From: Crossaster papposus
Lineage: Eukaryota > Echinodermata > Asteroidea > Velatida > Solasteridae
Direction: 5' to 3'
DNA: 64,000 nt
NCBI GenBank assembly: GCA_037893245.1
Contig: JBAIAA010000893.1
Location: 682,001 to 746,000, forward strand
Of the stretch, positions 36,301 to 39,300 are shown in pieces. The notes under the pieces are model-generated. The model saw nothing but the letters and a program-made list of their open reading frames with translations. It searched no databases and was not told the DNA's origin. The translations under genes were made by a program, and so were the position numbers. Each line of letters opens with the position of its first letter. The stretch's first letter is position 1.

Positions 36301-39300
36301 TGTTTTTTCATGTTCAAGGCAACCAAGGCGACCAAGCGAGGCAAGGGGGACGAGGAGGACACGGGCCCGGTGCTGATCATGAACAGCGGAAAGGACAGGA
36401 GAATCAGAGACGAGCAGGAACTCAAGGTAAGCAAGGCTGAACATAAAACTGACGGGCGTCCAAACACTGACGGGTTGTCAAAACCTTGTGGGTTGTCAAA
36501 AATGTGTTAAAGACTTGTGTTGTTAACCAGTTCGTGCCGGGATTATTTTAACATCACCGAGCCGAGGCGCGGAATTATTCTTAACGAAACTCGATCTGAG
36601 GTGGGTTCAAGCCGATAGTACCGGGAAGCACACCCACGCATTTCTGGCCTTGTTCGCTGCTGACAGACATTGCCGGCCTTGCTCGCTGCTGACAGACATT
36701 GCCGGCCTTGCTCGTGGCGTGTTTATGCGTCATTCGTTTTAAATCTGGGGGAAAACTTTGCGTTTATATACTTTCTCCGGTGCGAACTGGTTAAAGAGGG
36801 TTGTTGAAGACTTGTGTAACGTTTAAAATTTGGAATCAGTATGATAATGACGAAAGGTTTTATGCGAACGTCACGTGTATGTCCTGAAGCTGTTGTGTAG
36901 TTCCGTAACATAAGTGCAGTAGAAAAACAATAAGGGTGAGGAAAAGTATGTGTCAACTTTACACATTTTGGTGGTCTTTTGTCTCTGTGTTCTTCTAGGT
37001 CTTGAAGTGGAATTTCACGACGCCCCGAGCGGAGTACATTGATCAACTCAAGGATCAGATGCAGGCCTGTCTCAGTAGACCAACGATTGCTAATCTCTTC
37101 CACGCAGACTTCAAGTATCACATACAGGCTCTCAACACCCTCACCGAGGTAAGCGCAGTCTCTTTTACATCTTTGTACATACATCCTTGAACCCTTTCTC
37201 TCCTCAGAATTTGGATGTCTAAAAGAAGGCGACCGTGGCTTTCCTGGACGTCCTCCTTAAGTACCCGAGTAAACCTCAACATTCTTTCTCCTTTTTCTAC
37301 TCAGAAATTGGAGGTCTACAAGGATGCTACCATGGCTTCCCTGGACGTCCTTCTAAAGTACCCGAGTAAACCTCAACATCCTTTCCCCTTTCTCTCCTCG
37401 GAATTTAGACGTCTACAAGAATGCCAACATGGCTTCCCTGGACGTCCTCAAGTACCCGAGTAAAACTCGACATCCTTTTTCCCTTTCTCTCCTCAGAATT
37501 TGGACGTCTACAAGGAGGCCACCATCCCTTCTCTGGACGTCCTGTTCAAGTACCTGAGTAAACCTTGACATTCTTTCCCTCTTCTTTCCTTAGAATTTGG
37601 ACGTTTACAAGGAAACTACCATGGCTTCCCAGGACGTCCTTCTAAGTACCTAAATAAACCTCAACATCCTTTCTCCCTTTTTTTTTTCTCTCCTCAGAAT
37701 TTGGACGTCTACAAGGATGCCACCATGGCTTCCCTAGACGTCTTCCTCAAGTACCCGAGTAAACCTCGACATCCTTTCCCTCTTTCTTTCCTCAGAATTT
37801 GGACGTCTACAAGGATGCTGCCATGGCCTTCCTGGACGTCCTCCTCAAGTACCTGAGTAAACCTCGACATCCTTTCTCCCTTTCTTTTCTCAGAATTTAG
37901 ACATCTACAAGGATGCCACCATGGCTTCCCTGGACGTCCTCCTCAAGTACCCAAGTAAACCTCGACATCCTTTCTCCCTTTCTCTAAGAATTTGGACGTC
38001 TACAAGATGCCATCATGGCTTCCCTGGACGTCCTCTTCAAGTACCTTAGTAAACCTCGACATCCTTTCCCCCTTTCTCTCCCCAGAATTTGGACGTCTAC
38101 AAGGATGCCACCATGGCTTCCCTGGATGTCTTCCTCAAGTACCTGAGTAAACCTCGACATCTTTTCTTCCTTTCTCTAAGAATTTGGACGCCTACAAGGA
38201 TGCCACCATGGCTTCCCTGGACGTCTTCCTCAAGTACCTGAGTAAACCTCGACATCCTTTCTCCCTTTCTCTAAGAATTTGGACGCCTACAAGGATGCCA
38301 CCATGGCTTCCCTGGACGTCCTTCTCAAGTACCTGACCATCCGGTTCTTTGACACCAACACCAGCGTCATCCTCAAGGTCCTGCAGTACCTCAAGACAGT
38401 CTTCACTTACATGGCGGAAGAAGACCTCAGCCTGAGGGAGCACGAGGCTTCCAGTTTCATTCCCTACCTGATCTCCAAGGTGAGAGAAGAAAGAATAAAT
38501 TGGACTTAAGTCTGTGTCTAAATTATTTGGCTACGCCTTGACATTACATGCGAATCTGTTAGTGGCTGCAGCCAATTCCCATAGACTCGTGTTCAATTTC
38601 AATCCGCAACCAAGTAATTCAGGCACCGCGTTAGAGAGAGAAAAAGACAGACGAAACCCCTCTTGGGGTAACATGAGTAGTCTGGTGACATGAATGAAGC
38701 TGATTACCCCCATTGCTTTCCTGTACGGGCCACAGGGGACTAGACCAAGATGGCCCCCACCGAATGCAAACTGCAGTTTTATTTCCCTTTTAATTCCTCA
38801 AGGTTGGAGACAACAAAGAGAACATTCGTAAGGACGTGCGGGCCGTCATGCGACTCTTGACCAAAGTCTACCCTTCCAGCAAGATGTTTGGCTTCATCAT
38901 GGATGGCCTCAAGTCCAAAAACTCGCGACAGAGAACCGGTAATTCTTGCCTTTTTTTATTTGATGCAAGTCACTTGAATTTTGTAGACTCGAGTCGAGTC
39001 ATTGTAATAAGCAGTGGCTTGAACCAAGTTACGACCTTAAGTTATCAAGTTAGAGTCGAGCCGAGTCATATTCTTGCTCAAGTTAAATTTTTGTCACTGG
39101 CAATTTGGTGCCGTCTAATTTAGTATCACAAATGTTCAGACCTACAAAATATTATATGTGACCTGTTCCAACGAAACCCGGACAAAGTTGACTTTTTAGT
39201 TTTTCAGATTTTGCTTTTTTTAAATTCTCTAGGTTATCAGCTTTAAAATGATGTATCATTTACATATGTACCCCCACCCTATCTTCCCTGGGGTCTGGAT

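Follow-up and report, generated by a model that had tools for sequence, protein, structure and literature searches.

A tandem array of exon-start copies ahead of a CKAP5 exon in Crossaster papposus, a probable exon-edge minisatellite

In amphioxus, the globin genes BflGb6 and BflGb9 and the gene Adh3 contain so-called mirages, exon/intron boundaries copied in tandem in the manner of a minisatellite (PMC3087553, in excerpt). According to the same excerpts, the units of BflGb6 are 81–100% identical and number six and three, of 150–160 bp each, in two haplotypes; AG/GT signals are found in many of the mirage units, and RT-PCR suggests normal splicing. In the lancelet PGBD5 gene, 60- and 108-bp tandem repeats lie over splice sites, with three copies of the 108-bp unit (PMC3902484, in excerpt). 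Potato RdRp shows another outcome: there a tandem duplication that spans an intron-exon boundary gave rise to an intron, with activation of a cryptic donor, as the available part of PMC4974935 reports, and the model of intron gain by duplication is credited in that part to Rogers 1989.

On the evidence of its sequence, the array described here in the CKAP5 gene of Crossaster papposus is a further case of these known exon-edge minisatellites, and we consider it probable, with good confidence, that it is a harmless minisatellite, ignored by the splicing machinery, which arose over a short intron's 3' splice junction. Twelve units span the exon/intron boundary, and many of them carry AG/GT signals: AG is kept in 10 of the 11 decoy units, and GT in 10 of the 11 donor-like sites, the latter in a weak context. 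Like the BflGb6 array as excerpted in PMC3087553, this one repeats the 3' end of an intron together with the start of the exon; the repetition of the exon 3' boundary reported for BflGb9 in the same excerpts has its likeness in another array of this gene (40327–40897). In contrast to the six and three units of 150–160 bp in BflGb6, the CKAP5 array has eleven decoys of about 97 bp, which are more diverged (66–96% against 81–100% identity) and are known from genomic sequence alone. Compared with the three 108-bp copies in lancelet PGBD5 (PMC3902484, in excerpt), it lies in a different gene and has twelve units of about 97 bp. The duplication in potato RdRp likewise spans the 3' end of an intron and the start of an exon and includes a putative branch site, a pyrimidine tract and an acceptor, but it yielded a new intron (PMC4974935, in excerpt), whereas the CKAP5 decoys are, by score, devoid of a usable donor and an existing intron has been lengthened; judged by score, no new intron with a functional donor and acceptor is seen in the array. 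No array of this kind in a CKAP5 gene was known to the original prediction, and our literature search, made largely among open-access papers, likewise found none; within the same scope no further recognised case of the structure was found beyond those of amphioxus, lancelet and potato, the structure as such being published for amphioxus globin genes and lancelet PGBD5.

The window analysed is a stretch of 64,000 nt. A human CKAP5 bait maps by tblastn in order along positions 9286–56433, save for two secondary matches, both weak (E 0.014), and exon borders were taken from a spliced alignment. The latter consisted of 59 pieces, some of them short and unreliable (e.g. 2–31 nt) with gaps of 21–82 nt between pieces, and these were dropped by hand; scoring relied on 30 acceptors and 28 donors, the edge test on 40 exon pieces, and the length comparison on 33 exons and 26 introns. 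The exon upstream of the array (36999–37148, plus strand; tblastn and spliced alignment) encodes the start of a domain that we take to be TOG5, ends in phase 0 and has the donor GAG/GTAAGC. The true exon downstream (38276–38479, plus strand, 204 nt; aligned to Xenopus CKAP5-A) belongs to the same domain and lies between the acceptor CTCTAAG and the donor AAG/GTGAGA. In translation, the region around the array matches TOG5-type structures that have been solved for Xenopus CKAP5-A (9c13_E, E 1.3e-94), Drosophila Mini spindles (5vjc, E 3.5e-81) and ZYG-9 (2of3, E 8.5e-50). The join LTE/NLDAYKD is ungapped against both the Xenopus and the Drosophila protein, which identifies 37148–38276 as the right junction. 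The assignment of the gene to CKAP5 (CKAP5/XMAP215 family) and the choice of the true exon, both made in the original prediction, are borne out by tblastn and by the TOG5 alignment. The same gene holds in one of its introns an open antisense RVT_1 reverse transcriptase frame of 773 aa (11827–14148), by our reading a LINE-like retrotransposon, and in a late intron 44 copies, 99% alike, of the 12-bp unit GACGGACACAGT (52777–53306). At 60452–62229 a collagen-repeat frame precedes one that partially matches the C1q domain; the two may belong to a C1q/collagen-like gene. At 1986–3221 the minus strand has an open frame of 411 aa for which Pfam gave no match at 0.001.

The array is confirmed as real. 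It occupies 37181–38336 on the plus strand, where TRF gives a period of 98, 11.9 copies and a score of 1521, a separate repeat search gives 12 in-register copies, and the exon starts can be placed exactly in twelve units of about 97 bp (95–104 bp). A decoy array ahead of the true exon had been predicted from position 37209; the array stands, and its beginning is moved by TRF to about 37181. Each unit consists of the 3' end of the intron with its pyrimidine tract, an acceptor and 58–61 nt of exon start, eleven units being decoys and the twelfth the start of the true exon at 38276. The exonic part measures 61 nt, the length originally given for all, in eight of the eleven decoys (plus strand throughout): decoy 1 (37208–37268), whose unit is the most diverged (69% identity to the true one along its whole length) and which has an in-frame TAA, decoys 2 (37305–37365), 4 (37497–37557), 6 (37698–37758), 7 (37796–37856), 8 (37894–37954) and 10 (38086–38146), and decoy 11 (38181–38241), whose unit is 96% identical to the true one. 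It is 58 nt in decoy 3 (37402–37459) and 60 nt in decoys 5 (37594–37653) and 9 (37989–38048). All eleven end in a donor-like (A/G)TAAA(C/A), which is the predicted GTAAAC in nine, GTAAAA in decoy 3 and ATAAAC, with AT and not GT, in decoy 5. The acceptor of decoy 3 was rightly said to lack AG and reads GG; CTCTAAG was also rightly read at the real exon but does not mark that exon alone, decoys 9 and 11 having the same sequence. The 10 nt that join the exon end to the intron part, GTAAACCTCG, found no match in either flank by local alignment; a possible link to the donor of the upstream exon was considered.

Splice sites were scored against matrices made from the gene itself, that for acceptors from its 30 other acceptors (38276 left out, 32114 kept) and that for donors with 37148 (donor of the array intron) and 38479 (donor after its exon) kept and the true donors of the arrays at 27978 and 40327 left out. 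The true acceptor scores 7.0, close to the leave-one-out median of real acceptors (7.3), and the ten decoys with AG score 7.0–14.1, the top value being that of decoy 6; nine of the ten exceed the true site and one, identical to it in sequence, ties, while the GG site of decoy 3 scores 3.7. The eleven decoy donors score from −6.0 to 1.1 against 3.7–11.0 for the 28 real donors (leave-one-out), every one of them falling below the weakest real donor; the donors at 38479 (11.3) and 37148 (10.2) have full-matrix scores, both being members of the matrix. Within 37149–38479 there is no GT scoring at least 3 besides the two true ends, and only two AGs scoring at least 4 that are not unit acceptors (5.4 and 4.4). 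By these scores the units offer strong acceptors but no donors, and acceptor score cannot explain the choice of the true site. The true acceptor would be picked for being closest to the strong 38479 donor, by which the 204-nt exon would be defined; exon definition from 38479 together with the nearest acceptor may thus be the simplest account of correct splicing. A decoy acceptor paired with 38479 needs an exon of 299–1272 nt, and the longest of the 33 exons measured has 252 nt. That the array might be ignored through exon definition had been one option of the original prediction, and it appears to fit the splice-site scores.

The history of the intron may be read, in part, from the units themselves. 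The donor and the first acceptor of the array enclose 59 nt (37149–37207, plus strand), by sequence and length probably the intron as it stood before duplication, and the last 27 nt of this segment align to the intronic part of the repeat. Were the first acceptor the original one, duplication would have contributed 1068 nt of the intron, whose length would have risen from 59 nt to 1127 nt; the shortest of the 26 introns measured today has 186 nt, shorter gaps of the spliced alignment having been dropped where they lay beside unreliable pieces. Resemblance to the true unit increases from decoy 1 to decoy 11 (identity 0.69, 0.89, 0.90, 0.89, 0.86, 0.92, 0.91, 0.93, 0.95, 0.93 and 0.96; rho 0.91, p 1e-4, and without unit 1 rho 0.88, p 7e-4), with a weaker trend in the exonic part alone (rho 0.73, p 0.010; without unit 1 0.64, p 0.044). 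The true unit has no private changes and unit 1 has 17; pairwise identity is 66–73% between unit 1 and the others and 79–96% among the rest. The unit tree is a star in which none of nine inner branches is supported, so that serial growth is indicated by the identity gradient alone. Neighbouring units are at most weakly more alike: the Mantel correlation is 0.28 (p 0.057) over the full set and drops to 0.05 (p 0.38) once unit 1 is left out, so that no fine order of duplication is readable. A minisatellite would have grown at the 3' splice junction of a CKAP5 intron of about 59 nt, each unit of about 97 bp carrying the intron end and exon start that we see in it. The last unit, to which the body of the exon remains attached, would be the only one under protein selection, and the upstream units would have turned into intron and drifted. 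Any duplicated unit of some 100 bp is too long for a 59-nt intron and must include exon sequence, which may be all the explanation required.

Three further arrays in the same gene (all plus strand, by TRF and splice-site scores) lie at exon edges. At 27978–28353, units of about 113 bp run from the true donor 27980 to a last copy that holds 36 nt of exon end and, at 28353, a decoy donor with a good score (8.9), and the intron after this last donor copy is 57 nt long. At 31896–32228, a 179-bp unit in 1.9 copies places a decoy acceptor at 31935 (9.1) before the true one at 32114 (8.3); from the upstream copy the frame is open to 32314 but shifted across the true exon. At 40327–40897, a 155-bp unit in 3.7 copies repeats the exon end with four identical CAC/GTAAGT donors (all 8.5), of which the first, 40371, was taken as true and three are decoys; read-through past this first donor, which lies after codon 64, meets a stop at codon 71 of the frame used. 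With their copies removed, the introns at the 31896 and 40327 arrays would have 151 and 858 nt. We tested whether long tandem arrays are enriched at exon edges and rejected the idea: four of the six TRF arrays with a period of at least 90 in the gene overlap an edge against 2.8 expected by random placement (P 0.27), and with a seventh, two-copy array added the count is four of seven against 3.18 (P 0.40). The 24 shorter arrays all lie clear of exon edges. Nearby copies scoring 50 bits or more were found at 4 of 78 edges and at 57 of 400 control points, where the control points include points inside these and other repeats and the 40 exon pieces include approximate borders. Since these counts are no higher than chance in an exon-dense gene, we claim no preference for edges.

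The array had also been proposed to act as poison exons, each 61-nt unit being spliced in with its GTAAAC donor and so shifting the frame. The GT of ten donor-like sites would suit such cassettes, as would the unit lengths, nine of eleven of which are not a multiple of three, and the stop met on single inclusion in ten of eleven; the predicted frame shift does not extend to copies 5 and 9, which at 60 nt keep the frame, and whereas copy 5 meets a stop, inclusion of copy 9 is in frame and open (joins tested). The proposal fails, by score, on its donors, all eleven of which lie below all 28 real ones in an array with no GT of at least 3; a usable acceptor and donor are thus not found around each cassette, and only about 36 nt would separate adjacent units. 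We regard it as very improbable. A likelier misuse of the decoys is as alternative acceptors to the donor 38479. When all eleven decoy acceptors are read to that donor, the AG-less copy 3 included, a stop appears 12–159 nt after the acceptor and 145–1259 nt before the junction. Under the usual distance rule a stop so far before a junction makes NMD likely, and with stops this early NMD is expected for the decoy read-throughs; any leaked use of a decoy would end at an early stop, as read from the sequence, and the transcript would presumably be removed by NMD. This consequence lends some appeal to a regulatory array in which the decoys compete with the true acceptor and send a regulated fraction of transcripts to NMD: ten decoys retain AG with scores equal to or above that of the true acceptor, every read-through product has a premature stop, and the 59-nt intron given by the first acceptor could be removed by intron definition.

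The units give this regulatory role, which we hold to be unlikely, little trace of constraint. With unit 1 included, 16 of 24 singletons fall at third codon positions (p 0.0047 after a base-composition correction that takes its rates from those units themselves), which would favour it; the excess depends on unit 1, and a coding constraint on the decoys was rejected when the count without this unit, small in numbers, became 13 of 22 against 9.7 expected (p 0.20). The synonymous share of singletons is 11 of 24 against an expected 0.313 (p 0.13). Once unit 1 is left out, divergence is about equally free in the exonic and the intronic part of the decoys (0.367 and 0.351 singleton substitutions per site); the exonic rate is lower with unit 1 (0.40 against 0.595), a weak comparison since the intronic part of unit 1 is only 45% identical to that of the true unit, and deviations of all kinds from consensus, per site and copy, are also scarcer in exonic (0.071) than in intronic (0.106) sequence. 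AG is present in 11 of 12 units, but with at most one deviation in 72 of the 98 columns its retention is nothing special. Singleton rates, codon positions and AG retention gave no clear sign of constraint on the decoys, and a reading of these few changes would have the decoys drift while selection acts on the last unit only; the three similar arrays at other exons, at chance frequency, suggest a mutational and not a gene-regulatory cause. Splice scores and constraint measures point to no detectable regulatory function of the array. A fuller version would have eleven rival acceptors compete in an intron lengthened about 19-fold, nearly all of it copies of its own exon edge, with a passage from intron to exon definition and a low, copy-number-dependent NMD leak that tunes the CKAP5 level between individuals; taken jointly, these steps seem improbable to us. 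An assembly error, the real genome having one copy, is a very remote prospect. Long tandem arrays are error-prone, and the BflGb6 array appears aberrantly assembled in the genome draft (PMC3087553, in excerpt), but misassembly of one copy does not yield units 66–96% identical, with private changes and a spacing of 95–104 bp, and the private substitutions and small indels speak against simple assembly duplication; the copy number might still be wrong by a few units.

A harmless minisatellite, ignored by splicing, would remain our preferred reading, and as such the array would still offer a clean natural test of 3' splice site choice among near-identical rivals that differ mainly in their distance to the donor. 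The locus may also illustrate one route by which a very short intron becomes a long one, by taking up copy after copy of the adjoining exon edge, in a gene that carries four exon-edge arrays.
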